In this document: one piece after another, positions 5,586 to 34,958 of the stretch
Position numbering within the stretch: position 1 is the first letter of the stretch
Layout: each line of letters starts with the position of its first letter
Source of the DNA: an uncultured Flavobacteriales bacterium
GTDB lineage: Bacteria; Bacteroidota; Bacteroidia; Flavobacteriales_D; Sanyastnellaceae
Direction: 5' to 3'
Length of the DNA stretch: 64,000 nt
Assembly (NCBI GenBank): GCA_943787435.1
Contig: CALSMK010000007.1
Span: 1-64,000 of the forward strand
Translations under genes and position numbers: made by a program
Notes under the pieces: generated by a model
What the model was told of the DNA's origin: nothing
Databases searched by the model: none
What the model saw: only the letters and a program-made list of their open reading frames with translations

Positions 5586-8500
5586 ATGGTACGTAACCTT
5601 CTGCTTCTGTCCCTTTTCATGTGTTCCATCGGAGCTCTGCACTCCCAGTGTTCTGATCCCGAAGCGTGCAATTATGACCCCAACAGCTCAACCGAATCCA
5701 ATGGATCTGCCTGTTTGATTCTGGACACGCATGAGGTCCACACCACGGGGGCCCTTGCTGGACTGACCACTTACCGTCTCTACGTTCATTTGACTGAACC
5801 TGACCACTTTCTTTCAGCGATCAGCACCATCATTGACGAGAATGCTGACCCTGAGGAGAATCCAGGTCAAACCACCAGCATTCGGATTGCCACAACCACC
5901 TCGTTCTATCAAGATCAATTTGGAAGTGCAACCTCAACAGGCATCTCATCCAATCTGCTGTCCTTCTTTCCAGACTTGCTCTACGACAGTTGGGTCACCA
6001 TTGGACACGCCCCTGAAAATGGAGCCCCTGCAGCCACAGTCAGCACCATTGCCAGTCCAACACAAAACTGGGTGGCCAATTTCGAATCCGGTGAAGACTT
6101 GATCATGGACGACATCATTGGCGGCCTTTGGTACATCTATAACGATGGAAATGGTCAAGGTCTGCCCGATGAAAATGGTGATGTCCTCATTGCGCAGCTC
6201 ACCACTTCAGGCACCATTGAAGTGGAACTTTCGGGTCAGTTTTTCCCCAACCATGGATCTGGGCCAAACGGTGAAGCCGATGGAACAGCAGACATTCAGT
6301 TCATCACAGAGCTGGGACCCGATTGCCCAAATGACATCAATGCCAATTGTACCTATCCCGCTTCAGAAGAAGATTGTGACGGCAATTGCCTGGTAGATGA
6401 AGACTCAGACGGCATCTGCGATGAGAATGACCCTTGCGTAGGCACCTTGGATGGCTGCAACGTTTGCAACGGACCCGGACCAATTGAAGAGTGCGGATGT
6501 TCAGGCATTCCACAAGGAGATTGCGATTGCAATGGAAACCAACTCGACGCCCTTGGTGTCTGCGGTGGACCTTGCTCCAGTGATTCTGACCTGGATGGGA
6601 TTTGTGACGATGTTGATCCGTGTGTGGGCAGTTTAGATGCCTGTGGTGTCTGTAATGGACCGGGGGCCATTTACGATTGTGGCTGTGAAGCCATACCCCC
6701 AGGAGACTGCGATTGCAACGGAAATCAGGCAGATGCCATTGGCATTTGTGGCGGCAACTGCACCTCGGATTCCGATGAGGACGGCATTTGTGATAACCAG
6801 GACCCCTGCGTGGGATCTTTTGATGCTTTGGGAGAATGCAATGGCAATTGCACCGCAGACTCAGACAACGATGACATCTGTGATGATGTAGACCCGTGTG
6901 TGGGGGCCTATGATGCCCTTGGGGTTTGCAATGGCAATTGCCCCTCCGACATCGACGACGACGGCGTATGCGACAATGCAGAAATTCCCGGATGCACCGA
7001 CAATGAAGCCTGCAACTTTGATTCCGATGCGACCGATGACGACGGGTCATGTGAAGTTGAGGACGCAGTAGGAGACTGCGGAGGTGATTGTGAAAACGAC
7101 ATCGACAACGACAACGTCTGTGATGACGTAGACCCTTGTGTTGGAGATTTGGACGCGTGTGGTGTGTGCAATGGCCCAGGTTCCATTTATGACTGCGGCT
7201 GCTCTGGCATTCCAGCAGGGGATTGTGATTGCGAAGGAAATCAGGTTGACGTAGTGGGCGATTGTGGCGGCTCTTGCACGGAAGACACCGACCAAGACGG
7301 CATATGCGATGATGTGGATGCTTGCATCGGCCAGTATGACGCTTGCGGTGTTTGCAATGGAGTGGGCGACATCTTTCAATGCGGATGCAACAACATTCCA
7401 GAAGGAGAGTGCGATTGCAATGGAAATCAACTTGATGTGGTCGGAGTCTGCGGCGGATCCTGCACAGAAGACACCGACCAAGACGGCATTTGCGATGACA
7501 TCGACCCTTGCGTCGGGTCCCTCGATGCCTGCGGAATCTGCAATGGACCGGGTGCCATCCTGGACTGCGGATGCTCCAGCCTTCCCGCGGGTGACTGCGA
7601 CTGCGATGGCAACCAACTCGACGCCCTCGGAAATTGTGGTGGCCCTTGCTCTGCCGACCTCGACCAAGACGGCATTTGCGATGACATCGACCCTTGTGTC
7701 GGGTCCCTCGATGCCTGCGGAATCTGCAATGGACCGGGTGCCATCCTGGACTGCGGATGCTCCAGCCTTCCCGCGGGTGACTGCGACTGCGATGGCAACC
7801 AACTCGACGCCCTCGGAAATTGTGGTGGCCCTTGCTCTGCCGACCTCGACCAAGACGGCATTTGCGATGACATCGACCCTTGTGTCGGGTCCCTCGATGC
7901 CTGCGGAATCTGCAATGGACCGGGTGCCATCCTGGACTGCGGATGCTCCAGCCTTCCCGCGGGTGACTGCGACTGCGATGGCAACCAACTCGACGCCCTC
8001 GGAAATTGTGGTGGCCCTTGCTCTGCCGACCTCGACCAAGACGGCATTTGCGATGACATCGACCCTTGCGTCGGGTCCCTCGATGCCTGCGGAATCTGCA
8101 ATGGACCGGGTGCCATCCTGGACTGCGGATGCTCCAGCCTTCCCGCGGGTGACTGCGACTGCGATGGCAACCAACTCGACGCCCTCGGAAATTGTGGTGG
8201 CCCTTGCTCTGCCGACCTCGACCAAGACGGCATTTGCGATGACATCGACCCTTGCGTCGGGTCCCTCGATGCCTGCGGAATCTGCAATGGACCGGGTGCC
8301 ATCCTGGACTGCGGATGCTCCAGCCTTCCCGTGGGTGACTGCGACTGCGATGGCAACCAACTCGACGCCCTCGGGGAATGCGATGGCGAATGCGAATCAG
8401 ACCTCAATTCAAACGGCATTTGCGACACCGATGAACCATCTGGGTGCACGTATGAAGAAGCCATCAATTACGACAGCTCATCCGTGTTCGACAATGGAAC

Positions 8501-8624
8501 TTGCACATTTTCAGAACCCTGCGATGAAAATGATTGTCCATACGACGTCAACAATGATGGTTCAATTGGCGTGAGTGACCTCCTCGATCTCCTCGTTTAT
8601 TTCGGAGACTACTGCGTCGAGTAA
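5586..8624 (+). CDS. Secreted Cys/Asp-rich TSP3-like repeat protein (1012 aa) with shared N-terminal domain and C-terminal dockerin-like motif
   Basis: Signal peptide MVRNLLLLSLFMCSIGALHS; domain TYRLYVHL...SFYQDQFGSATS...YDSWVTIGH...GGLWYIY...VLIAQLTTSG; repeats CVGSLDACGICNGPGAILDCGCSSLPAGDCDCDGNQLDALGNCGGPCSADLDQDGICDDIDP; tail CPYDVNNDGSIGVSDLLDLLVYFGDYCVE. Confidence 0.85.
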   Translation: MVRNLLLLSLFMCSIGALHSQCSDPEACNYDPNSSTESNGSACLILDTHEVHTTGALAGLTTYRLYVHLTEPDHFLSAISTIIDENADPEENPGQTTSIRIATTTSFYQDQFGSATSTGISSNLLSFFPDLLYDSWVTIGHAPENGAPAATVSTIASPTQNWVANFESGEDLIMDDIIGGLWYIYNDGNGQGLPDENGDVLIAQLTTSGTIEVELSGQFFPNHGSGPNGEADGTADIQFITELGPDCPNDINANCTYPASEEDCDGNCLVDEDSDGICDENDPCVGTLDGCNVCNGPGPIEECGCSGIPQGDCDCNGNQLDALGVCGGPCSSDSDLDGICDDVDPCVGSLDACGVCNGPGAIYDCGCEAIPPGDCDCNGNQADAIGICGGNCTSDSDEDGICDNQDPCVGSFDALGECNGNCTADSDNDDICDDVDPCVGAYDALGVCNGNCPSDIDDDGVCDNAEIPGCTDNEACNFDSDATDDDGSCEVEDAVGDCGGDCENDIDNDNVCDDVDPCVGDLDACGVCNGPGSIYDCGCSGIPAGDCDCEGNQVDVVGDCGGSCTEDTDQDGICDDVDACIGQYDACGVCNGVGDIFQCGCNNIPEGECDCNGNQLDVVGVCGGSCTEDTDQDGICDDIDPCVGSLDACGICNGPGAILDCGCSSLPAGDCDCDGNQLDALGNCGGPCSADLDQDGICDDIDPCVGSLDACGICNGPGAILDCGCSSLPAGDCDCDGNQLDALGNCGGPCSADLDQDGICDDIDPCVGSLDACGICNGPGAILDCGCSSLPAGDCDCDGNQLDALGNCGGPCSADLDQDGICDDIDPCVGSLDACGICNGPGAILDCGCSSLPAGDCDCDGNQLDALGNCGGPCSADLDQDGICDDIDPCVGSLDACGICNGPGAILDCGCSSLPVGDCDCDGNQLDALGECDGECESDLNSNGICDTDEPSGCTYEEAINYDSSSVFDNGTCTFSEPCDENDCPYDVNNDGSIGVSDLLDLLVYFGDYCVE
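7494..8400 (+). repeat. Five near-identical tandem 186-bp (62-aa) coding repeats
   Basis: GATGACATCGACCCTTG starts at 7494, 7680, 7866, 8052 and 8238 (exact 186-bp spacing); only occasional C/T differences seen between copies. Confidence 0.95.
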
Positions 8625-8735
8625 GTCGATTAAAACCAGAATCAATAAGCGTCATAAACAAATTAGGTGGTTGATTATACTCCTTAAGCGAATAATTTGT
8701 CGCATCTTAAGGGTGCCAAAAATTCACTTGCCGCT

Positions 8736-11700
8736 ATGCCCGTAACCAAGGTCATTGCCTCATCCTATCTGGGGCTGGTATTTCTCTCCTGTCTGCTGCT
8801 GGGGACCAACCTGACTCTCGCACAATGTGATTCCACAGCGGGAGGTTTTTCTATTTCCGTTGAAAGAATCGCCGAAGACATAGGCGTCATTGAAGGAAAC
8901 AGCGGAACCACAGACCTATCCGGTTACAGCACTTACCGGGTTTATTTGAATTGCGAAACAGCCCAAGACAAGCTCAGCGCTATCGAAGGCAACAACAACA
9001 GGCCCCTTTCGATAGAAACCACCACCAGTTTCTTTCAAACCAGCCTCTTCTCCGGCAGCAACAACGTGCTGGCCAATGCCATTTCTCCTGTTCTGTATGA
9101 TCTCTATCCCGATGTCGTCTATGACAGTTGGCTCACCATTGGCATTCAGCAAAGTGCAGATGCATCAGCAGGAGAAGTCGAAGTCCAGCTTACAGAGGAC
9201 AACAGCTTTCCTCTTTCAACGGGCTTTGCCAACGGAAACAATGTAAACGTCAACAGCATAGCCGGAGCCACCTGGTACATCACAGACTCTGACCTCTACA
9301 CCAATGGTCTGGCAGGAGGTGACCTCAAAGTACTCATCGCACAGCTCACCACCGACGGTGAAATCTCTGGCCAATTCGGAATGCAGGTTTTCCGCAACGG
9401 CGTTTCTGACACCGAAAACTGCGCGCGCCCATACCTCTCGTTTGCTAGCCATGGCTGCATGGAAACCTCCGCTTGCAACTATGATCCAACCGCCATTTTT
9501 GACAATGGCACCTGTGACTTTTGTGCCTGTCCAGATTCAGTACAGGTGCTCTCTTCGTCCTTCCCAAGCGACAGCGTTCCAGGTTTGTCCTTGGAGTGCG
9601 AAATCATCGCCAACCACGACACCACGGGAATCACCACCGACCTTTTAGGAAACAGTGATCCGCTGGCCGGCATGAAGACCTACAGGGTCTACGCCAAAGT
9701 GGATGACCCAACCACCACTGTCAATGCCGGTTTCGGTGGCACAGCAGCGCCGCTGTCCATCACCTCCACAGAACCTTTCTATCAAAGTCAACGTTGGGCA
9801 ACTCCACACCGAGCAGCATTTCCGCTGCTCTCTGGAGCATCGACACCTACAAGGAGTCACAATACGACAGCTGGGTGACCATCGGCATCGACCGCAGCCC
9901 CATCTCAAATGCCACGCATGCTTCTTCAGGGGCGCCCTACCAAGCCATCAGCTCGGCAGGCAGCTGGCCAGCAGAATTTGAAGGTGGAGGTGGATTGTTC
10001 GCCTCTGGTTCAGTAGGAGGGACCTGGTTTGCATACCCTTCTTCGGCCAACGTGATTCCTGATGGAGACCTCCGCGTATTGGTCGCCCAATTCACCACAG
10101 CGGGCGTCGTAAGCGGGACACTTGGACTTCAGATTATTCCTGAGGAGGCGCCAAGTGACTCCACCAATGACTATCGATTGCCCTTCACCTTTACCACCCA
10201 AGGGTTAGGAGACTACGTCCCTGTTTTCCCAGAAATTTGCTCTTGCACCAACACCGACAATGACTACATCTGCGATGACGTAGACCCTTGCATTGGTGCA
10301 GAAGATGCCTGTGGCATTTGTAACGGTCCGGGAGAAATTTATGAATGCGGGTGCGCCGACATTCCTGAAGGGGATTGTGATTGTGACGGAAATCAACTCG
10401 ATGCCATTGGCGTTTGTGGAGGGTCCTGTACCGAGGATCTCGACAACAATGGAACCTGCGACGACAGCGAAGTTCTAGGATGCACAGATCTTGAGGCCTC
10501 GAACTACAATTCAGAAGCCACGCAAGACAATGGATCTTGCTTCTATCTGGGATGTACAGACCCCACTGCTTCCAATTTTGACAACACCGCTGACACCGAC
10601 GATGGGTCATGCACATATCCAGGTTGCACAGACCCTACTGCCTGGAATTACGATGCAACAGCAAACTTGGACGACGGCTCATGTCAGGCCAATGCATGTG
10701 GAATTGAGGGCCAATTGGTCGAGGTGACCAATTACGCTTACACCCCCGCCCAAGTGACCATTGCAACCGGTGAAGTTGTGATTTGGCAAAACAACTCCAC
10801 ATCTCTGCACAACGTCAATGGTGACGTGAACAGCCAAACGGACGAGAGCTTCAACAACCCAGAAACGTTCTCATTGCCCAACTCAGTTGGAAATGAGCAG
10901 GGGGTATGCATGGGAAGCTACACTTTCACCATACCAGGTGTGTATCAATATGATTGTTCCATCGGAATTCATGCCGCGCTTGGAATGGTGGGCACAATCA
11001 CTGTGGGTACAGGTGGGTGTTTGGATCCTCAAGCCACCAATTATGACGCATCTGCTGAGTTCGATGATGGCACATGCATCTTCTCCGGCTGCATCAATGG
11101 CGCCGCTTGTAACTACGACAGCAACGCCACCAACGACGATGGTTCCTGCGTATTCCCAACAGGGTGCCAGACTTGCTCTGGTGCAACTGACGGCAGCGGA
11201 ACCACTGTTGACAACGATGCCGACCAAGACGGCGTGTGTGACCAGGACGAGCTCCTCGGTTGCACCGATGCTTCAGCTGCATGCAACTACGACGCAACGC
11301 CGACCACCGACACCGACAACAGCCTCTGCGTGTTCGCAACAGGGTGCCAGACCTGCTCCGGTGCAGACCGACGGCAGCGGAACCACCGTTGACAACGATG
11401 CCGACCAAGACGGCGTGTGTGACCAAGACGAGATCCTCGGTTGTACCAATGCTGCGGCCTGTAACTACGACGCTACATCCACCACCGACACCGACAACAG
11501 TCTTTGCGTGTTCCCAACAGGTTGCCAGACCTGCTCTGGTGCAGACCGACGGCATCAGGCACCACCGTCGACAACGATGCCGACCAGGACGGCGTGTGTG
11601 ACCAAGACGAGATCCTCGGTTGTACCGATGCTTCAGCTGCATGCAACTACGACGCAACGCCGACCACCGACACCGACAACAGCCTCTGCGTGTTCGCAAC

Positions 11701-14700
11701 AGGGTGCCAGACCTGCTCTGGTGCAGACTGACGGCAGCGGAACCACCGTCGACAACGATGCCGACCAAGACGGCGTGTGTGACCATGGCGATGAACTCCT
11801 CGGTTGCACCAATGCTGCGGCCTGCAACTACGACGCTACAGCCGACCACCGACACCGACAACAGCCTCTGCGTGTTCCCAACGGGTTGCCAGACCTGCTC
11901 TGGTGAGACCGACGGATCCGGCACCACCGTCGACAACGATGCCGACCAGGATGGCGTGTGCGACCATGACGAGATCCTGACGGGCTGCACCGATGCTTCG
12001 CTGCCTGCAACTACGACGCAACGCCGACCACCGACACCGACAACAGCCTCTGCGTGTTCGCAACAGGGTGCCAGACCTGCTCTGGTGAGACCGACGGCAG
12101 CGGAACCACCGTCGACAACGATGCCGACCAGGATGGGGTGTGCGATGGTGATGAACTCCTCGGTTGCACCAGATGCTGCGGCCTGCAACTACGACGCCAC
12201 AGCCGACCACCGACACCGACAACAGCCTCTGCGTGTTCCCAACAGGTTGCCAGACCTGCTCTGGTGAGACCGATGGATCCGGTACCACCGTCGACAACGA
12301 TGCCGACCAAGATGGCGTGTGCGATGATGACGAGCTGAAGGGCTGCACCGATGCTTCGGCCTGCAACTACGACGCAACGCCGACCACCGACACCGACAAC
12401 AGCCTCTGCGTGTTCGCAACAGGGTGCCAGACCTGCTCTGGTGAGACCGACGGCAGCAGGTACCACCGTCGACAACGATGCCGACCAGGATGGCGTGTGC
12501 GATGGTGACGAGCTCCTCGGCTGCACCGATGCTTCGGCCTGCAACTACGACGCCACGCCCACCACCGACACCGACAACAGCCTCTGCGTGTTCCCAACAG
12601 GTTGCCAGACCTGCTCTGGTGCAGACCGACGGCAGCCGGTGCCGCCGTCGACAACGATGCCGACCAGGACGGCGTGTGTGACCAGGACGAGCAGCCTCGG
12701 CTGCACCAATGCCGCGGCCTGCAACTACGACGCAACACCGACCACCGACACCGACAACAGCCTCTGCGTCTTCGCAACAGGATGCCAGACTTGCTCTGGT
12801 GAGACTGACGGCAGCGGCACTACTGTCGACAACGATGCCGACCAAGACGGCGTGTGCGATGGTGATGAACTGCTCGGTTGTACCGATGCTTCGGCCTGCA
12901 ACTACGACGCCACGCCCACCACCGACACCGACAACAGCCTCTGCGTGTTCGCAACAGGGTGCCAGACCTGCTCTGGTGCAACTGACGGCAGCGGAACCAC
13001 CGTCGACAACGATGCCGACCAGGACGGCGTGTGTGACCAGGACGAGCAGCCTCGGCTGTACCAATGCTGCGGCCTGCAACTATGACGCAACACCGACCAC
13101 CGACACCGACAACAGCCTCTGCGTCTTCGCAACAGGTTGCCAGACCTGCTCTGGTGCAGACTGACGGCAGCGGCACTACTGTCGACAACGATGCCGACCA
13201 AGACGGCGTGTGCGATGGTGATGAACTGCTCGGTTGTACCGATGCTTCGGCCTGCAACTACGACGCCACGCCCACCACCGACACCGACAACAGCCTTTGC
13301 GTGTTCGCAACAGGGTGCCAGACCTGCTCTGGTGCAACTGACGGCAGCGGAACCACCGTCGACAACGATGCCGACCAGGATGGAGTGTGTGACCAAGATG
13401 AGATCCTCGGTTGTACTGATGCTGCGGCCTGTAACTACGACGCCACATCCACCACCGACACCGACAACAGCCTTTGCGTGTTCGCAACAGGGTGCCAGAC
13501 CTGCTCTGGTGCAACTGACGGCAGCGGAACCACTGTCGACAACGATGCCGACCAGGATGGAGTGTGTGATGGTGATGAACTCCTCGGTTGTACAGATGCT
13601 GCGGCCTGTAACTACGACGCCACATCCACCACCGACACCGACAACAGCCTCTGCGTGTTCGCAACAGGGTGCCAGACTTGCTCTGGTGAGACTGACGGCA
13701 GCGGCACCACTGTCGACAACGATGCCGACCAAGATGGAGTGTGTGACCAAGACGAGGTCCTCGGTTGTACAAATGCTGCGGCCTGTAACTACGACGCAAC
13801 GCCGACCACCGACACCGACAACAGCCTCTGCGTGTTCGCAACAGGGTGCCAGACTTGCTCTGGTGATACCGACGGCAGCGGAACCACCGTTGACAACGAT
13901 GCCGACCAGGATGGAGTGTGTGACCAAGATGAGATCCTCGGTTGTACTGATGCTTCGGCCTGCAACTACGACGCAACGCCGACCACCGACACCGACAATA
14001 GCCTCTGCACATACACAGACGGCATTTGCGACAGCTGCATCAATGGAGTGGTCGTAGACAATGATGCCGACAATGATGGTACCTGTGATGCAGATGAAGT
14101 GGCCGGATGCACCGACCCCAATGCATGTAACGTGGGATCATTCTCGGATACAGACAATTCACTCTGCACCTACGTTGATGACAATTGTGAAAGCTGCGTC
14201 GACGGTTCTGTCATCCTGAATGACAGCGATGCTGACGGAGTTTGCGACCAGGACGAACTGCTCGGGTGCACCAATGCCGCTGCATGCAACTACGACGCAA
14301 CGCCGACCACCGACACCGACAACAGCCTCTGCGTATTCGCAACAGGGTGCCAGACTTGCTCTGGTGAGACCGATGGCAGCGGTACCACCGTCGACAACGA
14401 TGCCGACCAAGATGGCGTGTGCGATGATGACGAGCTGAAAGGCTGCACCGACGCTTCGGCCTGCAACTACGACGCCACGCCCACCACCGACACCGACAAC
14501 AGTCTTTGCGTGTTCCCAACAGGATGCCAGACCTGCTCTGGTGAGACCGATGGATCCGGTGCCGCCGTTGACAACGATGCCGACCAAGACGGCGTGTGTG
14601 ACCAGGACGAGATCCTCGGTTGTACCAATGCCGCTGCATGCAACTACGACGCAACACCGACCACCGACACCGACAACAGCCTCTGCGTCTTCGCAACAGG

Positions 14701-16946
14701 ATGCCAGACTTGCTCTGGTGAGACTGACGGCAGCGGCACTACTGTCGACAACGATGCCGACCAAGACGGCGTGTGCGATGGTGATGAACTGCTCGGTTGT
14801 ACCGATGCTTCGGCCTGCAACTACGACGCCACGCCCACCACCGACACCGACAACAGCCTTTGCGTGTTCGCAACAGGGTGCCAGACCTGCTCTGGTGCAA
14901 CTGACGGCAGCGGAACCACTGTCGACAACGATGCCGACCAGGATGGAGTGTGTGACCGTGATGAGACTCCTCGGTTGTACAGATGCTGCGGCCTGTAACT
15001 ACGACGCCACAGCCGACCACCGACACCGACAACAGCCTCTGCGTGTTCGCAACAGGGTGCCAGACTTGCTCTGGTGAGACTGACGGCAGCGGAACCACTG
15101 TCGACAACGATGCCGACCAAGATGGAGTGTGTGACCAAGACGAGGTCCTCGGTTGTACAAATGCTGCGGCCTGTAACTACGACGCAACGCCGACCACCGA
15201 CACCGACAACAGCCTCTGCGTGTTCGCAACAGGTTGCCAGACTTGCTCTGGTGAACCGACGGCAGCGGCACCACCGTTGACAACGATGCCGACCAGGATG
15301 GAGTGTGTGACCAAGATGAGATCCTCGGTTGTACTGATGCTTCGGCCTGCAACTACGACGCAACGCCGACCACCGACACCGACAATAGCCTCTGCACATA
15401 CACAGACGGCATTTGCGACAGCTGCATCAATGGAGTGGTCGTAGACAATGATGCCGACAATGATGGTACCTGTGATGCAGATGAAGTGGCCGGATGCACC
15501 GACCCCAATGCATGTAACGTGGGATCATTCTCGGATACAGACAATTCACTCTGCACTTACGTTGATGACAATTGTGAAAGCTGCGTCGACGGTTCTGTCA
15601 TCCTGAATGACAGCGATGCTGACGGAGTTTGCGACCAGGACGAACTGCTCGGGTGCACCAATGCCGCTGCATGCAACTACGACGCAACGCCGACCACCGA
15701 CACCGACAACAGCCTCTGCGTGTTCGCAACAGGGTGCCAGACCTGCTCTGGTGAGACCGACGGCAGCGGAACCACCGTTGACAACGATGCCGACCAAGAT
15801 GGCGTGTGTGACCAAGACGAGATCCTCGGTTGTACCAATGCTGCGGCCTGTAACTACGACGCTACATCCACCACCGACACCGACAACAGTCTTTGCGTGT
15901 TCCCAACAGGATGCCAGACCTGCTCTGGTGAGACCGATGGATCAGGCACCACCGTCGACAACGATGCCGACCAGGATGGAGTGTGTGACCAAGATGAGAT
16001 CCTCGGTTGTACCAATGCCGCTGCATGCAACTACGACGCAACGCCGACCACCGACACCGACAACAGCCTCTGCGTGTTCGCAACAGGGTGCCAGACTTGC
16101 TCTGGTGAGACCGACGGCAGCGGAACCACCGTTGACAACGATGCCGACCAAGATGGGGTGTGCGATGGTGATGAACTCCTCGGTTGCACCAATGCTGCGG
16201 CCTGCAACTACGACGCAACGCCGACCACCGACACCGACAACAGCCTCTGCGTGTTCCCAACAGGATGCCAGACCTGCTCTGGTGAGACCGATGGATCAGG
16301 CACCACCGTCGACAACGATGCCGATGAGGACGGCATTTGCGATGCGGACGAAGTCCCCGGTTGCACCGACGAAGGCGCATGCAATTATGACAACGCAGCG
16401 ACCGATGAGAACGGCACTTGCGAGTTTGAAAGCTGCTCAGGCTGCACAGACTCAAGTGCATGCAACTACGACGCGACCGCTTCCATTGAAGACGGCACAT
16501 GCACCTATCCAGAGGAAGGCTTGAACTGCGATGGAACCTGCATCAATGACAGCAACAACAATGGCATCTGTGATGAAGACGAAACAGACTGCCCGGACTA
16601 CAATGGCAACGGTGTGTGTGACAACCTGGAAGTCTTTGGATGCACCTATTCAGAGGCCTGCAACTATGACGTCTTGGCCACGGCTGATGACGGATCCTGC
16701 ACTTATCCTCAGTATGGATTCAACTGCGATGGAACCAGCATAGATGGATCCAACCAATTCGCGGGTTGCACATACAGTGAAGCTTTGAACTTCAGCGCTG
16801 CTGCCAACGTAGACGATGGAAGCTGTGTATTCTTAGATGCCCCCGATGAAGTCGGTCCATGCCTGTTCGACGTCTCAGGAGATGGGTCAGTCAACACCCC
16901 TGACTTGCTCATATTCCTCTCTTATTGGGAGACAACATGTGAGTGA
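8736..16946 (+). CDS. Giant (~2.7 kaa) secreted repeat protein: two copies of the shared YDSWVTIG domain, cupredoxin-like domain, ~27x 59-aa TSP3-like repeats, dockerin-like C-terminus; ORF broken by many frameshifts in this assembly
   Basis: ATG at 8736 (MPVTKVIASSYLGLVFLSCLLLGTNLTLAQ signal peptide). Homologous coding content continues through ORFs 8697..9878, 9794..11392, 10887..11906, 11504..11731, 11620..12267, 12164..12508, 12351..13085, 13064..14998, 14983..15444 and 15303..16946. Ends CLFDVSGDGSVNTPDLLIFLSYWETTCE. Confidence 0.75.
10697..11016 (+). other. Cupredoxin-like (type-1 copper) domain inside the giant repeat protein
   Basis: IEGQLVEVTNYAYTPAQVTIATGEVVIWQNNSTSLHNVNGDVNS...GSYTFTIPGVYQYDCSIGIHAALGMVGTITVG; candidate ligands H (SLHNV) and C-x4-H-x4-M (CSIGIHAALGM). 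Confidence 0.7.
13887..14334 (+). repeat. Copy 1 of a ~448-bp near-identical block, duplicated at 15274..15721 (offset 1387 bp)
   Basis: Contains the distinctive TYTDGICDSCINGVVVDNDADNDGTCDADEVAGCTDPNACNVGSFSDTDNSLCTYVDDNCESCVDGSVILNDSDADG module; one C/T difference noticed (14170 vs 15557). Confidence 0.9.
15274..15721 (+). repeat. Copy 2 of the ~448-bp block at 13887..14334
   Basis: See copy 1; same flanking repeat-variant order upstream. Confidence 0.9.
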
Positions 16947-24967: not shown

Positions 24968-25833
24968 GCGACTTGCTTCATCAGGTGATTTCCGGATACC
25001 ACCAAGCGGTAAGAAATTTGAGAAAAGAGGTCTTGGACGCTTCACCCAGTCAATGGAGGTTGGCCGCAGACACCGTTGCCAGGTTGTACATCGCCCCCAA
25101 AGACCTGCACATTGAACGTTTTGAATGGCAAGGAATGCCCACTGAATGCATTCGCCGGACCTCCACCAAGGAAGACGCCAAGCCCATCATTTGGATCCAT
25201 GGTGGTGGCTTCGCCTTCTGTTCTCCGCGCACCCACCGGGCCGCAGCTTCTGCCATTTCAAAAGTCACCCAACGTCCCGTTTGGCTGCCAGAATACCCAT
25301 TGGCTCCCGAGCATCCATATCCCGCGGCACTGAACGCCTTGACTCAAATTCAACAGGATGGCCCCATGGACATCATTGGGGATTCAGCAGGGGGCAATCT
25401 GGCCCTTTCTTGGGGCCTGCGGCGCTCGGCACAAGACCGCTTGCTTTTGCTGTCTCCTTGGCTGGACCTGAGGGTCGATGCACATTCTGCCAAGATGAAT
25501 TCCGCCGCGCACAGCGCATTTGACAGGGAAGACCTTAGAGAGTACGCCTCCTTGTACCTCAAAGGTCATTCGCCCACCCAAGAGGATTGCAGCCCTGTTC
25601 TTGCCTCAGACAAGGCACTCCAGGGAATTCACTCGGTTTACATTGAATCTTCAAAATCCGAATTGCTTCACAGCGACTCCCTTGCATTCACAGAACGGTG
25701 CCAGGGTGCCGGAATTTCGGTGGAACACCGCATCGAAGACTCTGCGCATCATGGTTGGTGCTTGTTCCCAGACTTGCTTCCAGAAGCCAAAAGAAGCGTC
25801 GAGCACATGGCCCGCTTTTTGGCCAAACGCTGA
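24964..25833 (+). CDS. Alpha/beta hydrolase, HSL-type esterase
   Basis: IWIHGGGFAFCSP oxyanion motif, GDSAGGNLAL nucleophile, DSAHHGWCLFP histidine. Confidence 0.85.
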   Translation: MSDLLHQVISGYHQAVRNLRKEVLDASPSQWRLAADTVARLYIAPKDLHIERFEWQGMPTECIRRTSTKEDAKPIIWIHGGGFAFCSPRTHRAAASAISKVTQRPVWLPEYPLAPEHPYPAALNALTQIQQDGPMDIIGDSAGGNLALSWGLRRSAQDRLLLLSPWLDLRVDAHSAKMNSAAHSAFDREDLREYASLYLKGHSPTQEDCSPVLASDKALQGIHSVYIESSKSELLHSDSLAFTERCQGAGISVEHRIEDSAHHGWCLFPDLLPEAKRSVEHMARFLAKR

Positions 25834-25840
25834 ATCAGGC

Positions 25841-27034
25841 CTAATCAGACACAGAATCCAGCGCCTCCAGCAACAAGGCCAAGGCCTGATCCAGCTCTCG
25901 AGGAGATGCATTGAGCGGTGGCGCCAATCGGAAGCCTTGGGGACGGCTGAGAAACCAAAAACAAACCAAGCCTTTGGATCTGGCAGAAGCCACCAGCTTG
26001 GATACACGCTCCGGTCCATCCAAATCCACACCAAGAAAGTGTCCCATGCCACGCACTTCGCACACGGCAGGATGGCCGGTTAAGGCCTGCTTCCAACGTT
26101 CTCCTGTGGCTGTGATTTCAGACCAATCCAACTGCCCCAATTCTTGCAGAAACGCAGCCGAAGCTGCACAGGCCAATGGGTGCCCTCCAAATGTGGTGAT
26201 GTGGCCGAGCTTGGGGCTTTCCCGGAGGGCGATCATTCGTTTTTTGGAAGAAACAAAAGCTCCGATGGGCATTCCTCCACCCAAGGCCTTGCCCAAAACA
26301 AGAATATCGGGCACAACGCCAGTGCGCTGGAACGCGTGCAATGCACCTGTTCTGCCCAATCCGCATTGGATTTCATCCAAAATCAACAAAGCTCCAGTCT
26401 GGCTGCATCGCTCACGCAGTGCAGTGAGGTAGGCCAAAGACAAGGGGCGAATCCCCGCATCGCCTTGGACAGTTTCCACGCAAACTGCAGCCGTTAGGTG
26501 GGTGATCAACGACAAGGCCTCCGTGTCTTCAAATGGCAAATGGTGCACCTGAGGCAACAAAGGCAAAAACGCATTCCGGCGATGGGAGGGTGTGGACAGA
26601 CTCAAAGCCCCAAACGTAGAGCCGTGATACCCTCCCGAGACCCCAAATATTTCTGTTCGGCCTGTTGACCTTCTCGCCAATTTCATCGCCCCTTCGATGG
26701 CCTCTGTTCCGCTGTTCACGAAATAGACGGCATCCAATGGCGTATCGCTTAACCCTTTGAGCAAAAGTGCCGCCGCCCGATCCTGTGGCGCTTGCGCATA
26801 TTCACCATAGACCATGACATGCAAGTGTCGGTCCACTTGGTCGTGAATGGCCTGACGAATGGCCGGGTGGCCATGCCCCAGGGAACTGACCCCAATTCCA
26901 CTCACGAGGTCAAACAATTTTTCGCCAGACTCCGTCTCCAACCAGCACCCTTCAGCCCGGACGATTCTCTCGCCGAGTGGGTGAGGGGTGGTCATCGCCA
27001 ATCCTCGATCGAGAAAATCCTTCGAGTGGCTCAT
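25841..27034 (-). CDS. Class-III PLP aminotransferase (acetylornithine aminotransferase-like)
   Basis: VNSGTEAIEGAMKLAR, GGYHGSTFGALS, LILDEIQCGLGRTG, LGKALGGGMPIGAFV. Confidence 0.85.
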   Translation of the reverse strand: MSHSKDFLDRGLAMTTPHPLGERIVRAEGCWLETESGEKLFDLVSGIGVSSLGHGHPAIRQAIHDQVDRHLHVMVYGEYAQAPQDRAAALLLKGLSDTPLDAVYFVNSGTEAIEGAMKLARRSTGRTEIFGVSGGYHGSTFGALSLSTPSHRRNAFLPLLPQVHHLPFEDTEALSLITHLTAAVCVETVQGDAGIRPLSLAYLTALRERCSQTGALLILDEIQCGLGRTGALHAFQRTGVVPDILVLGKALGGGMPIGAFVSSKKRMIALRESPKLGHITTFGGHPLACAASAAFLQELGQLDWSEITATGERWKQALTGHPAVCEVRGMGHFLGVDLDGPERVSKLVASARSKGLVCFWFLSRPQGFRLAPPLNASPRELDQALALLLEALDSVSD

Positions 27035-30000
27035 TTCAATGGCTCCAAGTCAAATTCAAATTCATCCGCAAAAACCCATGTTGGATTCATCCGACCCAAG
27101 TGCCAATCTGGAATCTCTCCTCCGTTGAAATGGGCCAATTCCAACTTCACAAAGCGCGCTTCTCGGCTGCCAGAAAAGGAAACCCGCTCAGTCTGTGGTG
27201 TGTAGTCTTCTGGTTCCATGCCGGTGCCCGCTTGACCGAAGGCTTCAAAAGCCTCGCCATCCAACGAAACACTGCAAGTGATTTGACTCGGTGCCCAAAT
27301 CCAAGACTTGACATCTTGCAACACCCCAACGCTCATGCCGTTGACTTGGTAAAGCCCACCCAAGTCTACGGTCACCTCAGCAGGTTGGCCGTAATAGCCC
27401 TGCCAGTCCCCAGTTCTGAAATCAGCACCTTCGCCCCGAATTCCGTCGATCAACGCCCGCTCACCTCCTGCGGCATATTGATTGGCAAATGGGTAGCGCA
27501 CGTCGACCTTGTAATCGGGATTCACCCTGGCGATTCTGCCGGTGACCACAGCACTCTTACCATTCGCCGTCTCTGCGACCATTTGAATCACTTGGGTTCC
27601 ATGCACCAGCACGGGGCCATCCACATTCTCAAAAGGCCGATTGGCCAAGCTTGGCAGGTCATCTCCCATGCGATAGCCCACAGAGGCTCCCTCATGAACA
27701 CAACCAATGGACACCGACAAGCTGTCTCCAGAATAGCTCCTAGGGGCATTGAGGAAAGGCGCAGTCACAAATTCCTCATCCCCAAGCTCCCAATCTGAAA
27801 CTGGCCAGTCTTTCTGTGGGCCTCCCCAACCATCTTCGCCGGCCGGATCATCTTTCAACTCAAAGGACCATGTACCTCCAGCCATCAACTCACTGTGGCT
27901 GACCCAGCTTCGGTTCAATGCCACTCCATCCACACTCCACCCATGGACATAAATGGAGTTAGGAGATTCTCTTTTCGCTGACATCCGCAAAGTCTTGCCA
28001 TTGGACAGGTCCCATTCAAACCCATCAAAGCGTGGCGTGCCAATCACATATTGATCGGAACCAGGGGTGACGGGGTACAGCCCCAAAGCACTCCAGATGT
28101 ACCAACTGCTCATTTGCCCGCAATCCTCATTTCCGCTTAGGCCGTCGGGCTCGGCCGTGTACATCACGTCACAAATGCTGTCTACGAGCATTTGAGTGCG
28201 TTCAGGGTGACCGGCAAACGCCGGCAAATAGGCCATGTGATGAGAAGGCTCATTGCCATGGGCATATTGACCAATCAATCCTGTAATGTCGCTCTGATGA
28301 CGACCAGACATGCGACTGGAGCCGGAGAACATTTCCTTCAACATAGATGCATATCCCTCGGGACCGCCGAGCATCTCCATATGCTTGGACACGTCGTGCG
28401 GCACAAAAAAGTTGTATTGCCACCCATTGGCCTCGGTGTACTCAAAGGTGACTTCAGTGGGGTCAAATGCCTCTCGCCATGCGGCGCCATAGCGAGGCTG
28501 AATGAATTCGTTTTCTGGGTTGAACAGATTCTGCCATCCCTGCGCTCTCTTTCCAAAACGAGCTGCCACGTCAACCCTTCCCATGTCTTCAGCCATGCGT
28601 GCAATGCAAGCATCGTCAAAGGCATATTCCAAGGTCTTGGAGACACTCTCACTTTCTCGTTCCAGAGGCAGATAGCCCAAACTGTCCCAAACGGGTTTGG
28701 ACAATTCATTGGCTGTGGCCGCAGCCACCATGGCTTCCAGCGCCGCATCTGCATCAAAGCCCCTCAAGCCCTTGGCCCAAGCATCTGCAATGACGGGCAC
28801 CGCATGATATCCAATCATGCAACCGGTGTAGTTGCCTGCCAACTCCCACATGGGCAATTGCCCGCCCTCTTCATGCATGGCGATGAAATTCTGAATGAAT
28901 TCCTCTGTTCGTTCAGGCTCCAAAACATTCAAAAGAGGATGGGTGGCGCGGAATGTGTCCCACAATGAAAAGACGGTGTAGCGTGGTGCATCCACCTGCC
29001 CATTGTGCACCGCCAAGTCCGTTCCTCGATAACGTCCATCTGCGTCAGAAGCCAAGTTTGGAACCGTCAAACTGTGGTACAAACTGGTGTAGAAAATGGT
29101 GCGTTCCTCGGGGTCCTTTTCTTGGATTCTGATTCGACCCAAGGCCTGGTCCCAAGCCTGTTCAGCTTTGGCTCTTGCCCCATCAAATCCACCTGCACTT
29201 GGCGCCTCAGAATTCAAATTATTCAAGGCGCCTTCCACGTCAACAAAACTTAAAGCAACACGCGACTCAACAGACCTTACATCCTTAAAAATCAATGAGA
29301 ATATAGGGACAAATGCCATCTCCTGATTCAACAGGCCATCCTCCCCATATTCCGCATTCAATTCAGCCATTTGATCCAACCATTCAAAGGGCTCATCAAA
29401 GCGCATGGCGAAGTAAACATGCTGCTCCTCAGCCCAATTCTTGGACACCCTCAGGCCCACCAACGTGGAATCATCTACCGGGTACATTCCGTAGCTCAAC
29501 ACATCATCTCGGTGCGCCAAATCCACCACAAGCTGAAGGGTGTCCAGATCCTGCAATGTCCATCGGTGCCAGCCCACCCGAGCCCCCGCTGTGACCTCCA
29601 CAGAAATCCCGCTTCGTTCCAATTCACATGAGTAATGTCCGGCATGGGCCTGCTGACTGCCTGGAACAAACCGATCTCGATAACGCTCTTGCCAAGTGGC
29701 TCCAGTGTCCATGGGACCAACAGTAGGCATCAGCAGGACATCTCCATAGTCACTCACTCCCGTGCCCTGAAGGTGGGTATGACTGAACCCGTATACCACA
29801 TCATCCGTGATGTGAAACCCTCCGCATCCATCCCAACCCTCGAGTCGGGTGTCAGGACTCACCTGAACCATTCCAAAAGGGACTGTGGCCCCTGGGAAGG
29901 TGTGCCCATGACCACCCGTCCCAATGAAGGGGTCCACTTGCTGGCACAAACGTGACGGTGGCGCATCGCATCCGATCACGAGCAACATGAAGGGCCACAA

Positions 30001-30048
30001 AGACCATTGAAGCAGGTTGGTGAATCGCGTATTCATGGAGGTCGTCAT
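27031..30048 (-). CDS. GH92 family glycosidase (alpha-1,2-mannosidase-like) lipoprotein with C-terminal F5/8-type-C-like domain
   Basis: Lipobox MLLVIGCD; VDPFIGTGGHGHTFPGATVPFGMVQVSPDTR; GFSHTHLQGTG; YTVFSLWDTFRATHPLL; GNEDCGQMSSWYIWSALGLYPVTPGSDQYVIGTPRF. Confidence 0.9.
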   Translation of the reverse strand: MTTSMNTRFTNLLQWSLWPFMLLVIGCDAPPSRLCQQVDPFIGTGGHGHTFPGATVPFGMVQVSPDTRLEGWDGCGGFHITDDVVYGFSHTHLQGTGVSDYGDVLLMPTVGPMDTGATWQERYRDRFVPGSQQAHAGHYSCELERSGISVEVTAGARVGWHRWTLQDLDTLQLVVDLAHRDDVLSYGMYPVDDSTLVGLRVSKNWAEEQHVYFAMRFDEPFEWLDQMAELNAEYGEDGLLNQEMAFVPIFSLIFKDVRSVESRVALSFVDVEGALNNLNSEAPSAGGFDGARAKAEQAWDQALGRIRIQEKDPEERTIFYTSLYHSLTVPNLASDADGRYRGTDLAVHNGQVDAPRYTVFSLWDTFRATHPLLNVLEPERTEEFIQNFIAMHEEGGQLPMWELAGNYTGCMIGYHAVPVIADAWAKGLRGFDADAALEAMVAAATANELSKPVWDSLGYLPLERESESVSKTLEYAFDDACIARMAEDMGRVDVAARFGKRAQGWQNLFNPENEFIQPRYGAAWREAFDPTEVTFEYTEANGWQYNFFVPHDVSKHMEMLGGPEGYASMLKEMFSGSSRMSGRHQSDITGLIGQYAHGNEPSHHMAYLPAFAGHPERTQMLVDSICDVMYTAEPDGLSGNEDCGQMSSWYIWSALGLYPVTPGSDQYVIGTPRFDGFEWDLSNGKTLRMSAKRESPNSIYVHGWSVDGVALNRSWVSHSELMAGGTWSFELKDDPAGEDGWGGPQKDWPVSDWELGDEEFVTAPFLNAPRSYSGDSLSVSIGCVHEGASVGYRMGDDLPSLANRPFENVDGPVLVHGTQVIQMVAETANGKSAVVTGRIARVNPDYKVDVRYPFANQYAAGGERALIDGIRGEGADFRTGDWQGYYGQPAEVTVDLGGLYQVNGMSVGVLQDVKSWIWAPSQITCSVSLDGEAFEAFGQAGTGMEPEDYTPQTERVSFSGSREARFVKLELAHFNGGEIPDWHLGRMNPTWVFADEFEFDLEPLK

Positions 30049-30599
30049 TTCTGTTTGAGGGTCGGCACAGGAGATCCAGGCGGCACAGCCAACCCTCCAG
30101 CAGGGTCTTTGCACACCATGCATTTCATGCGGTCATGGAATCCAAAATGCTGAATGGATGGGGCAGGAGGAGACAAAATGCTATCCAAAGACATCTGCTG
30201 CACCGGAGAAAGAAAGTCCGACAAGAAGGCATTCCTTTCTTGCTTGACCCCCTTGATCTGTTTTTGAAGCGCCCCCACTTGGACCAGCAATTCGGACTCG
30301 TCCATCTCCAACCTCTCGAGAGAATCCACCCGAGCCTTCAACTCATGGCTCTTTTTGGCCGCCATTTCAAAAGTCCCTGTCCAGATTTGCTGCACAGCCG
30401 AAACAGGCTTGAAGCGGTCCACCAACGCGTTCAACATCCTCAATTCAGCGCCATTGAGCTCAGACCTTGATGAATCTGCTGCCACGACCGGCTGGGAAGC
30501 CTGCCCCAGAGCCGAGCCCATCGAAAAAGCCAGACAACAAACCAGCAAGGCCCCTGAGGCCATACGGGTAAAACAAGAACGGGCGGAAACCGAGGTCAT
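30045..30599 (-). CDS. Hypothetical secreted coiled-coil protein with C-terminal CxxC (MKCMVCKD)
   Basis: Signal peptide ...LLVCCLAFSMGSALGQ; overlaps the start of the GH92 gene. Confidence 0.55.
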   Translation of the reverse strand: MTSVSARSCFTRMASGALLVCCLAFSMGSALGQASQPVVAADSSRSELNGAELRMLNALVDRFKPVSAVQQIWTGTFEMAAKKSHELKARVDSLERLEMDESELLVQVGALQKQIKGVKQERNAFLSDFLSPVQQMSLDSILSPPAPSIQHFGFHDRMKCMVCKDPAGGLAVPPGSPVPTLKQK

Positions 30600-30693
30600 T
30601 CAGGGCACAAATTACCGCCTTGGCTTGAGGTCCCCAGAAAGCATCCAATGAACGGCCTCGTTCCATGGTGACGACGACGTCAAACACCGACCA

Positions 30694-31776
30694 CTAACGT
30701 CCAGTCCATAGCTGCTCTCCCTGCACACCCTCTATGCGCGCTTGCCTGGTCGGCACCTCCACCACCAAACCAGACCCGGATAGCTTTCGGGGCACAGGCG
30801 AACCTGAGCAGCCACCGGGGAATCCAAGAGGGGCACACCCAAACAGTTTACCGCGCCCCGAAACCACCAATGCATCCGCCAAAAGAAGCGAAGCACTAAA
30901 ACTCAACCCATCGACCATCACGGACAAGGGAACGCGGACAGTGCGCTTTGACCGAACCAATGACCCATCCTCGACTGGCTCAAAAGGCGCCTCATGCCCC
31001 CAGTGCCTCTCCGTCTCCAAAGGCCATTCCTCATTGGATAAAAACAAACCAAGCACAGAATGCCTGCGAGAACGGTACCCGCCAGTATTGCCTCTTAAAT
31101 CCAGCATCACAGGCACATTGGCTCGACGGATTTTCCGGCGGATGCGTCTGAATTCCCGACCAAAAACTGAGGCGGAATTCGCGCCAAACGAAGGGATCAC
31201 CCAGCGAACAAAAGCCCCGTGATCCTCCAGCCGCATTCCCAACAACGAAGACGCCTTCTTTGGCGCATGGCGCAACGCAGCAGCTATCGAGTCCGTCAAA
31301 AACTGGCCTGAACCAAGGACCCCAACCCAAGGCCAAGTCCGTTTGAGCCACTCAGACCTGGCGCTCTCCGGCAAGGCCACACTGGGACCAAACCCAGACC
31401 AGACCTCACCAGTGAGGAGTTCGCCTGCAGCAGGAGAGGGGGCTTGGAGCCTGAGGGGCGTTAACAGATCAAACCTGACCCTCAAATGGGCATCCCTCAA
31501 AGACCTCACCCAAGCATGCACTGCAAGCGCCCAATCCACTTCACTGACCCGCGCTGTATCCACAGCCAAGTTCATTAACGCATGCCTCGACGTCAACCGC
31601 CCTAAACGCTGACCGTCCTGAGCGAGCACGGGCTCAACCCAACTGTCCAAGTCTGCAATGTCCATCCTTCGCTCTTCCAAGGACACGGGATCCCATTGCC
31701 CAAAGCCCATTTGGAAGCAAAAAAGAGAAATGACCATCAACAGCCATCGAAGAGCGGAAGGAAACAAAAGCATCAA
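30694..31776 (-). CDS. Secreted S41-like peptidase (ClpP/crotonase-fold C-terminal half)
   Basis: VPVMLDLRGNTGGYRSRRHSVLGLFL; LSVMVDGLSFSASLLLADALVVSGRGKLFGCAPLGFPGGCSG. Confidence 0.6.
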   Translation of the reverse strand: MMLLFPSALRWLLMVISLFCFQMGFGQWDPVSLEERRMDIADLDSWVEPVLAQDGQRLGRLTSRHALMNLAVDTARVSEVDWALAVHAWVRSLRDAHLRVRFDLLTPLRLQAPSPAAGELLTGEVWSGFGPSVALPESARSEWLKRTWPWVGVLGSGQFLTDSIAAALRHAPKKASSLLGMRLEDHGAFVRWVIPSFGANSASVFGREFRRIRRKIRRANVPVMLDLRGNTGGYRSRRHSVLGLFLSNEEWPLETERHWGHEAPFEPVEDGSLVRSKRTVRVPLSVMVDGLSFSASLLLADALVVSGRGKLFGCAPLGFPGGCSGSPVPRKLSGSGLVVEVPTRQARIEGVQGEQLWTGR

Positions 31777-33857
31777 AGCGTGGAAACGTCCGGCCCTTGC
31801 GATTGTGGCTGCTCCTTGTTTTTCACCATCGTCAAAATGGTTGCAATGGCCACTGTTTCGCCAGTTTCATCGGTGACATCCACCTTGAACTTGACAATCC
31901 CTTTCAAAATGTCATCCTCACCCTTCCATTCCTGTTGAATTCGCTCCTCAACTGTGAGCTTCACTCCAATGGTCATTCCTGGGTATACCGGCTTGGTGAA
32001 TCGACAAGACTCCAAACCGTAATTCAGCAAAACAGGGCCTTTGTGAGGAGACACAAACATTCCCGCAGCCTTTGACAAAACCCAATACCCGTGGGCCACG
32101 CGCTGCTCGAAAATGGTGCCTTCCAGCGACGTTTCATCTACGTGGGCATAAAAGTGATCCCCACTCACATTGGCGAAATTCACAATGTCCGCCTCGGTCA
32201 CGGTGTGCCGATGGGTGCTGTATGTCATGCCCACAGACAACTCCTCAAAATGAAGACGGAAGGGGTGCACAAGAGACTCTGGACGCGCCGCTCCGGGCTG
32301 ATGACGAGACGTAATCGCCGTGATTGTATCCGGATGCCCTTGAATGGCCGTTCTCTGCAAATAGTGCCCCAACCCCCGAAGGCCTCCCATTTCTTCACCA
32401 CCGCCAGCTCGGCCCGGTCCACCGTGAACCAGCTGCGGCATGGGGCTTCCATGACCGGTGCTTTCTTTGGCACAGTCTGCATCCAAAACCAAGATTCGAC
32501 CATGGTGCGTTGCCGCCTCCACAACAAACTCCCGAGCCACCGCCTTGTCTGCTGTAACAATACTACAACAAAGAGATCCTTTTCCCTTGTGAACCAACTC
32601 GATAGCATCGGATAAATTGCGGTAAGGAAGGAGGCTTGAAACGGGGCCAAACGGCTCAACTTCGTGGACCAATTTGGCTTGCAAAGGCGAACTGTGGGTC
32701 AACAACCTCGGACCATAAAACGCCCCATCCTCAGCATTGGCCCCAATCAAATCAGGCCGATCCAAAGCAAACATCGTTTCGGTCTCTGTCATCAGTTTCG
32801 CGACCGCAGACTCCACTTCAGCCCTTTGGGACAAACCTGCCAGGGCTCCCATTCGAACGGCTTCATTGGCAGGATCACCCATTTGAACCCGCTCCAATTG
32901 TGACTTCAATGCATCTCGCACAGCCTCCAGATGCGCCTCTGGAACCATGGCCCGGCGCACTGCAGTGCAACGCTGACCGCATTTGATGGTGAATTCACGC
33001 CTAAGCTCTTTGATGAACAGATCAAACTCTGCCGTCCCCGGGGCGGCATCTGGCCCCAGAACCATGCTGTTCAATGAGTCTGCCTCCAAGTTGAAGGGGA
33101 CATTCTCACTCTGAATCTTCGGGTGGGCTTTGAGCATGCTGCCCGTTTCTGCAGAGCCCGTAAATGTGACCACATCTTGAAAGCCGACATGGTCCAATAG
33201 GTCTCGCGCACCTCCACAGACCAACTGCAGCGCACCTTCGGGCAGAATACCCGAAGCTTCAATCTCCTTCACCATCGCATGGGCGACATAAGAAGTGAGC
33301 GTTGCAGGCTTCACTATGGCAGGCACACCAGCCAGCAAATTCACACTGACCTTTTCCAGCATCCCCCAAATGGGAAAGTTGTAGGCATTAATATGTATAG
33401 CGACACCCCGTTTGGGAACGCCGATGTGATGACCAATGAAGGACCCTCCTTTGGAAAGGAGAGCAGGATCACCATCCACCAAGTAGGGGAGGTCTGGCAA
33501 TTGCTTCCGCAGGCTGGCATAAGCGAACATCGTTCCTATGCCCCCTTCAATGTCAATCCACGAATCTGAGCGGGTTGCTCCCGTATGCGCACTCCATACA
33601 TAGAACTTCTCCTTGTTGGCCATCAAGTGGAGGGCCAATGTCTTGAGCATCATGCCCCGCTCCTGGAAGGTCATCTTCCGGAGGTGCGCTCCTCCGACTT
33701 GTCTTCCATAACGACAGGCAGCATCAAGGTCAACATTAGACGCATCCACTGCGGCAACGGGTCTTCCGTGCACAGCGTCGAGGAGGGGAGAGGGGTTGGG
33801 ACCAGCAGGAGACCATTGCCCTTGAATGAAATTATCGAGTACCAGCATGTGAATCAC
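31773..33857 (-). CDS. paaZ: PaaZ: bifunctional oxepin-CoA hydrolase / 3-oxo-5,6-dehydrosuberyl-CoA semialdehyde dehydrogenase
   Basis: Aldehyde dehydrogenase half (INAYNFPIWGMLEKVSVNLLAGVPAIVKPA; VTFTGSAETG; IKCGQRCTAVRRA) fused to a MaoC-like hydratase half (VTEADIVNFANVSGDHFYAHVDE). Confidence 0.92.
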   Translation of the reverse strand: MIHMLVLDNFIQGQWSPAGPNPSPLLDAVHGRPVAAVDASNVDLDAACRYGRQVGGAHLRKMTFQERGMMLKTLALHLMANKEKFYVWSAHTGATRSDSWIDIEGGIGTMFAYASLRKQLPDLPYLVDGDPALLSKGGSFIGHHIGVPKRGVAIHINAYNFPIWGMLEKVSVNLLAGVPAIVKPATLTSYVAHAMVKEIEASGILPEGALQLVCGGARDLLDHVGFQDVVTFTGSAETGSMLKAHPKIQSENVPFNLEADSLNSMVLGPDAAPGTAEFDLFIKELRREFTIKCGQRCTAVRRAMVPEAHLEAVRDALKSQLERVQMGDPANEAVRMGALAGLSQRAEVESAVAKLMTETETMFALDRPDLIGANAEDGAFYGPRLLTHSSPLQAKLVHEVEPFGPVSSLLPYRNLSDAIELVHKGKGSLCCSIVTADKAVAREFVVEAATHHGRILVLDADCAKESTGHGSPMPQLVHGGPGRAGGGEEMGGLRGLGHYLQRTAIQGHPDTITAITSRHQPGAARPESLVHPFRLHFEELSVGMTYSTHRHTVTEADIVNFANVSGDHFYAHVDETSLEGTIFEQRVAHGYWVLSKAAGMFVSPHKGPVLLNYGLESCRFTKPVYPGMTIGVKLTVEERIQQEWKGEDDILKGIVKFKVDVTDETGETVAIATILTMVKNKEQPQSQGPDVSTL

Positions 33858-33989
33858 AAAGAAAAGGACTCAATTGATGAAGAAATCCTTAATTCGTCGA
33901 CAGAATCCTTTCGTATGGCGGGAATTTCCGCTATATTGGAGAAGAATTGTATCGCCTCCTCTAGTCTTTGAATCACTAACACCCTGAAC

Positions 33990-34958
33990 ATGAAGAACTT
34001 GTTCGCACTCTCTGCCGCTGTGCTTTTCGGCTTTTCCGCCGCCGCCAGCAACGTCCAGCTTGTAGTCCAAGCTGTCGACAACGGTGATGCCGTACCTGGC
34101 AACACTTACCGCGTTTACGCTGAGCTGCCCTCAAACCAGCACAGCCTCCATGCCATCTTCGCCGATGGTGAACACATGCTGAATGTGACCTCCACAGGAA
34201 CGTTCTATCAGAACCAACTCGGTGGCGCCACCAGCTATGACATCAACAACGCCATCATCGGAATGGATGAAACCCTGGCTTATGACAGCTGGGTAACTGT
34301 TGGCGCTGACAACAACAACAACAACAGCCTTTGGAACATCGGCATTGATTTTGCCGAGTTCAACTCAGGTGGTGCCATCGAAGTGGTGGACGGAGCTTGG
34401 TTCGTCGTTCCTACAGACGTTCGTGCTGCAGCTGATGCCCGCAACCTCGTTTTGTTGATGCAAATCACCACTGACGGAACGGCCACTGGCACACTGAACA
34501 TGCAAGGATGGACTCCAAACGGTGAAACATGGCGTGATTACGACATGACCTTCACAACGGAGAACGCCGAAGTGTTCGGATGTACTGACACCCAGGCCAG
34601 CAACTTCAATGTTGAAGCCACCTACGACAACGGAGCTTGCGAGTTCGCAAATGACAACGGCGCCATTGCTGACCTCTTCGATCTCGAAGACAGCAACTGG
34701 AACGTTTTCCCGAACCCCGTTTTTGAAGGACACTTCAGCATTCAGTTCGACAAGGAAGTCAACCTTGGTTCTGAGAACATCATCGTCGAAGTTCTGGACA
34801 TGTCTGGTAAAGCAGCCATCTCTCAGGAAATGACTTCAGGTGACGTCATCGGAGGCAACCGCATCATGGTCAAGCACAGCCTCGCTGCTGGAGCCTACAC
34901 CTTGAGCGTGACCCACAAGGACTTCTCCGCTGCACAAAACTTGATTGTGAAGAAGTAA
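33990..34958 (+). CDS. Secreted protein with the shared YDSWVTIG domain, one GCTDxxASNF motif and a T9SS CTD
   Basis: TYRVYAELP...GTFYQNQLGGATS...LAYDSWVTVGAD...DGAWFVVP...LVLLMQITTDG; GCTDTQASNFNVEATYDNGACEF; WNVFPNPVFEGHFSIQF...AAQNLIVKK. Confidence 0.85.
   Translation: MKNLFALSAAVLFGFSAAASNVQLVVQAVDNGDAVPGNTYRVYAELPSNQHSLHAIFADGEHMLNVTSTGTFYQNQLGGATSYDINNAIIGMDETLAYDSWVTVGADNNNNNSLWNIGIDFAEFNSGGAIEVVDGAWFVVPTDVRAAADARNLVLLMQITTDGTATGTLNMQGWTPNGETWRDYDMTFTTENAEVFGCTDTQASNFNVEATYDNGACEFANDNGAIADLFDLEDSNWNVFPNPVFEGHFSIQFDKEVNLGSENIIVEVLDMSGKAAISQEMTSGDVIGGNRIMVKHSLAAGAYTLSVTHKDFSAAQNLIVKK

Follow-up and report, generated by a model that had tools for sequence, protein, structure and literature searches.

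A previously undescribed secreted all-beta domain family in Flavobacteriales, usually placed N-terminally in modular proteins that end in a sorting domain or a dockerin-like tail

The first 64,000 nucleotides of contig CALSMK010000007.1 from an uncultured Flavobacteriales bacterium, read on the forward strand (the window, to which all coordinates refer), contain three genes for secreted proteins that share a domain of about 180-200 amino acids, here named D. All features described lie on the plus strand. Gene A (5586..8624) encodes, as judged from its open reading frame (ORF) and profile matches, a protein of 1012 amino acids with a signal peptide, one D (copy A, 5700..6311, with a 12-amino-acid insertion), a TSP3-like and cysteine-rich array and a C-terminal dockerin-like tail of a single repeat (8535..8618, CPYDVNNDGSIGVSDLLDLLVYFGDYCV). 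Gene B (8736..16946) encodes a signal peptide, two copies of D (B1, 8862..9458, and B2, 9678..10264), TSP3-like units, a cupredoxin of the plastocyanin/azurin family (10727..11005, PF00127, E 7e-10), a long cysteine-repeat array and again a C-terminal dockerin-like tail (16860..16943). Gene C (33990..34958, 322 amino acids) combines a signal peptide, one D (copy C, 34035..34577), one cysteine repeat unit and a type A C-terminal sorting domain of the type IX secretion system (T9SS; 34704..34949). This sorting domain scores 29.1 bits, over the cut-off, and 26.6 bits with hmmscan against the Pfam cut-off of 27; with 27.5 bits it is over the TIGR04183 cut-off of 23, and together with the SprA encoded in the genome (E 7e-155) this identifies gene C as T9SS cargo. 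Genes B and A are dominated by arrays of the units GCTDxxACNYDxxATxDDGSC and, TSP3-like, CDxDGNQxDALGxCGGxC, located at 10265-16850 in gene B and at 6320-8530 in gene A; the arrays of gene A gave zero Pfam matches.

The first-pass annotation of this DNA had proposed, from a set of short motifs, four copies of one domain in three proteins, and all motifs were found in their places. TYRLY, YDSW, GLWY and LIAQLTTSG start at 5769, 5982, 6123 and 6186 in copy A; TYRVY, YDSW and LIAQLTTDG at 8931, 9120 and 9333 in B1; TYRVY, YDSW, GTWF and LVAQFTTAG at 9678, 9863, 10019 and 10079 in B2; and TYRVY, YDSW and GAWF at 34104, 34281 and 34392 in copy C. The copies are 29-35% identical in pairwise BLASTP (E 1e-13 to 5e-25), and a hidden Markov model (HMM) built from three of them recovers the remaining one at 89-117 bits, compared with 18 bits for the best shuffled sequence. 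An HMM built from relatives only, leaving out the window and its close orthologues, scored B1 with 187 bits (E 9e-56), A with 166 (E 3.5e-49), B2 with 155 (E 7e-46 with both halves read as one protein) and C with 119 (E 9e-35), while 2000 shuffled copies reached at most 7.7 bits and a best E of about 1. As judged by these sequence comparisons, the four segments are homologous beyond doubt.

B1 and B2 had been assigned to a single gene. This is borne out by five related genomes (L036, L037, L038, L040 and L041), where both copies lie in one ORF (of at least 2916 amino acids in L036), whereas in the window a frameshift near 9790-9805, inside B2, puts B1 and B2 in two separate ORFs. The frame shifts several more times in the cysteine-repeat array, and gene B, as a correction to the first-pass annotation, continues through this broken array to 16946 and ends in a tail of the gene A type, which had been missed. 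The A-B gene pair is kept in four of the five relatives, L038 showing B alone, and the equivalents of gene A end in the same type of tail in all four (L036, L037 and L041 by motif scan, L040 by eye). Relatives carry such repetitive surface-protein genes as single ORFs. Comparable frame breaks occur in other large genes of the assembly (L022, L028 and L034), and for this reason the break in gene B leans towards an assembly error. Frameshifts in large repetitive surface-protein genes are likely to be indel errors, with real mutation as the alternative.

The core of D has the consensus GxTTYRxY..DFxSAVxG..P..TTTxFYQxxLG..INPxL...FPxLxYDSWVTIG...FExG...IDDxxGGxW...VLxAQxTTDGxxSGxxxxQVF, to which the full domain adds a short N-terminal strand region before TYR and a last strand after the core. 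The motifs YDSWVTIG, FYQ, GxW and QxTT are kept across highly diverged copies. The suggestion that D belongs to no named Pfam family was upheld: Pfam-A and NCBIfam searches at E<=1 gave no significant match over D in the window copies, and 26 copies of the genome scanned singly against Pfam-A gave none over the cut-off, with scattered matches at E>=0.03. The NCBIfam matches are the cupredoxin and the T9SS domain alone, both outside D, and a profile search of the PDB with D had a best E of 0.62, so that no named domain common to the four copies emerged. The string YDSWVTIG was absent from the papers searched by text, and the five among them that mention both dockerin and Flavobacteriales concern, judging by their titles and the opening parts of their abstracts, other subjects.

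AlphaFold models of B1 (112-row alignment, pLDDT 96.4, pTM 0.92) and of C (89 rows, 92.6 and 0.89) are both confident and all-beta, and their strands and helices follow one another in the same order. B1 and C thus probably share a fold, as the first-pass annotation had expected, a view that is based on element order and homology rather than on superposition; the modelled copies are in any case not structurally discordant. For neither model did a Foldseek search of the PDB give a match at E<=0.001. The best neighbours are weak and non-significant; they are for the most part adhesins of the beta-sandwich type (FnBPA, Als9-2, UafA and SspB), and also include ApaG, YcnI and cohesins. D is a previously undescribed secreted all-beta domain family, absent from Pfam, NCBIfam and the PDB.

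D is abundant in its own 2.1-Mb genome. A first whole-genome search found 35 places, and an iterated HMM 38 matched stretches in 15 genome regions and the window, which correspond to about 33 distinct copies after joining split pieces. Partner domains in the genome are TIG, HYR_4C, fasciclin, SprB, PKD, CBM48 and peptidase M43, with the cupredoxin in the window, and to call D a reusable module with varied partners, as had been done before, was an understatement. D is present in each of the 12 further genomes sampled from the genus, with 21-45 copies per genome. Of the 114 genomes of the family 112 have it, and of the 399 genomes of the order 152, where the 40 D genomes from other families belong mostly to family f9 and have a divergent form. 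A wide spread in Bacteroidota was rejected, as only 3 of 396 sampled genomes of the phylum match (the own genome, another from its family and a third from f9), none of them outside the order. D was not found on plasmids, phages or viral contigs. Among the best 80 matches of a genome-contig scan nearly all are titled Flavobacteriales or Crocinitomicaceae. A 3.1-kb contig titled Poseidoniaceae archaeon (CALHIR010000055.1) holds two D domains, and since these are the sole copies in that genome and lie on so short a contig, a binning error is likely; archaeal occurrence was rejected in favour of a probably misbinned bacterial contig. D is thus a lineage-defining domain that marks a large, so far unannotated part of the surface proteins in these bacteria; among their named relatives metagenome-assembled genomes prevail.

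In intact genes D is, with few exceptions, the first module behind the signal peptide. Among the 102 D ORFs from relative loci and the window whose N-end is uncut, counted in the stop-to-stop frame, the first D begins by residue 173 in 100, mostly at residues 44-100 and just after the signal peptide; the relative loci were picked as best matches, which over-represents typical copies. For 68 such ORFs the 3' end is complete: 20 finish with a dockerin-like tail, about 38 with a T9SS-like end, a class defined here by a simple motif and not by an HMM, and 10 with neither by these rules. The latter include both halves of the broken window gene B, and the ORF of L040, which has a tail by eye (the 21st). 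Besides SprA, the genome has 41-44 Por_Secre_tail matches. That D comes first, that two alternative signals occur at the C-terminus and that D and dockerin-like tails co-vary across the family (see below) had escaped the first-pass annotation.

Gene A ends in CPYDVNNDGSIGVSDLLDLLVYFGDYCVE and gene B in CLFDVSGDGSVNTPDLLIFLSYWETTCE. A tail profile was made from 19 such ends (alignment A3); it matches the window tails at E 7e-15 (gene A) and 4.7e-13 (gene B), and both of these, like several other genome matches, were training sequences. The repeat fits the calcium-loop and helix pattern DxNxDGxxxxxDLxxL. With the profile about 75 tail repeats are found in the genome, spread over about 50 genes. 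In the 30 best loci (L123-L152) the tail stands at the extreme C-terminus, 0-3 residues before the stop, with one repeat or two; about 12 of these 30 (e.g., L135, L145, L151 and L152) have two repeats in about 60-70 amino acids, which is not the case for window genes A and B. Searched against the PDB, the profile has its best matches in cellulosomal dockerins (E 1.7e-8 to 1.7e-6), followed by calmodulin-like EF hands. The Pfam dockerin family PF00404 is over its cut-off at four places in the genome, with most tails below it, and the gene A tail has no PF00404 match at E<=1. The cysteine-bracketed tail is apparently an undescribed C-terminal module of the family. It is also carried by proteins without D, among them an M12B protease, an M43 protease, an endonuclease I, a phosphodiesterase, arylsulfotransferase-like and lysyl-oxidase-like proteins, a GH16+CBM48 protein and a GH81 protein. 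The latter two are glucanases (L176:101-2245 and L184:154-3111), and their tails suggest laminarin use by complexed or surface-held enzymes.

Across genera, the candidate counts of D and tail go together. Over the means of 21 genera Spearman's rho is 0.82 for D and tail, -0.11 for D and the T9SS domain and 0.09 for the tail and the T9SS domain; given T9SS count and genome size, D and tail have a partial rho of again 0.82. The counts are of unscored first-look candidates, D and tail occur together in some proteins and genera are not independent of one another, which makes the correlation a lead and not a proof. In the order sample 122 genomes have D and tail, 30 D only, 3 tail only and 244 neither. 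The 30 with D only have mostly divergent D and no tail at E<=1e-5, and they include genus g23, where every sampled genome has D. Canonical cohesin (PF00963) has no match at E<=0.1 in the own genome and is over the cut-off in 5 of 111 genomes of the family.

We favour, with a probability of about 0.5, the view that D is the N-terminal, ligand-binding recognition head of modular surface proteins, because D stands at the free N-terminus and a surface signal at the C-terminus. The D protein would be exported, with D as its first folded module behind the signal peptide, and the cysteine-rich/TSP3-like, HYR, PKD, TIG or SprB repeats would form a stalk. Through the T9SS sorting domain or the dockerin-like tail the C-terminus would be held on the cell or on a complex at its surface, and D, exposed at the free tip, may bind a polysaccharide or another surface protein. 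Several points weigh against this. Homology implies no ligand for D, and no fold match goes below E 0.003 or has a template-modelling (TM) score over 0.53, so that the likeness to adhesins is a general one. D is internal in some ORFs of the own genome, several of them frame-broken, and some relative ORFs hold up to five copies, which would suit a structural spacer too. If D were such a passive module, serving structure or folding in the manner of Ig, PKD or TIG and without specific ligand, this would agree with the repetition and with its many unrelated contexts. Spacers, however, rarely hold one fixed end, whereas D is N-terminal in nearly all intact genes, and YDSWVTIG, FYQ, GxW and QxTT are conserved despite high divergence. 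We consider this explanation improbable. Beta-sandwich modules of the size of D are commonly carbohydrate-binding modules (CBMs), in L022 D occurs in fusion with a CBM48-like module, and GH16 and GH81 enzymes are among the secreted proteins of the genome. D could accordingly be a CBM for algal or marine polysaccharide, but the GH16 and GH81 proteins read here are without D and no CBM family is over its cut-off on D (CBM_4_9 alone appears, at E 0.04), and we consider this unlikely, if worth keeping in view.

A more far-reaching explanation is that D is a cohesin-analogue receptor for the dockerin-like tails, in a cellulosome-like complex of tailed enzymes and multi-D scaffolds held to the cell via D-T9SS proteins. 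The abundance of tail repeats on hydrolases and proteases, the cellulosomal dockerins as best matches of the tail profile, the correlation of D with tail and not with T9SS, the scarcity of genomes with tail alone and that of canonical cohesins all point in this direction, and tailed multi-D proteins resemble adaptor scaffoldins. Sequence homology of D to cohesins was rejected on the Pfam-A searches, which gave no PF00963 match over D copies, and on hhalign (probability 0.1%, thin alignment with five cohesin or cohesin-like sequences), and the fold gives no significant match either. The 30 D genomes that have no tail at E<=1e-5, with g23 throughout, and the nature of the counts argue in the same sense, and a single-repeat tail is half a dockerin. 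A receptor role is rather improbable, and a shade more so its full form, a cohesin-free cellulosome-like system in Flavobacteriales in which D would dock the cysteine-bracketed tails, T9SS-anchored D would serve as surface docks and tailed multi-D giants as scaffolds. D is nevertheless a concrete candidate partner for dockerin-like tails that occur without cohesins, and if it does bind them, these bacteria would possess a new kind of extracellular enzyme complex.

Compared with known systems, D is like the cohesins (PF00963) of cellulosomes in being secreted and beta-rich and in recurring within large multi-domain proteins, in genomes with many tailed hydrolases, and cohesins are among its weak fold neighbours (E 0.018-0.56, TM at most 0.38 for the cohesin chains listed). 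It differs in its sequence and in being usually an N-terminal head. The tail resembles type I dockerins (PF00404) in its C-terminal calcium-loop repeat DxNxDGxxxxxDLLxxL, in the length of its double forms (about 60 amino acids) and in its best PDB matches; unlike them it often has one repeat, is bracketed by two cysteines and in few copies exceeds the Pfam cut-off. For cohesin/dockerin machines that act on substrates other than cellulose there is a precedent in the 'planctosome', which has been proposed for freshwater Planctomycetes (PMC6461901). It likewise would be a cellulosome-like machine not directed at cellulose, and it includes M12B proteases and TSP3 and HYR modules, but uses recognised cohesins, of which none was detected in the own genome and to which D is unrelated by sequence. 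The beta-sandwich adhesin heads FnBPA, Als9-2 and UafA have no sequence relation to D and a best E of 0.004 with TM of at most 0.39, but they are its weak top Foldseek neighbours and share with the D proteins the order of N-terminal head, stalk and C-terminal anchor.

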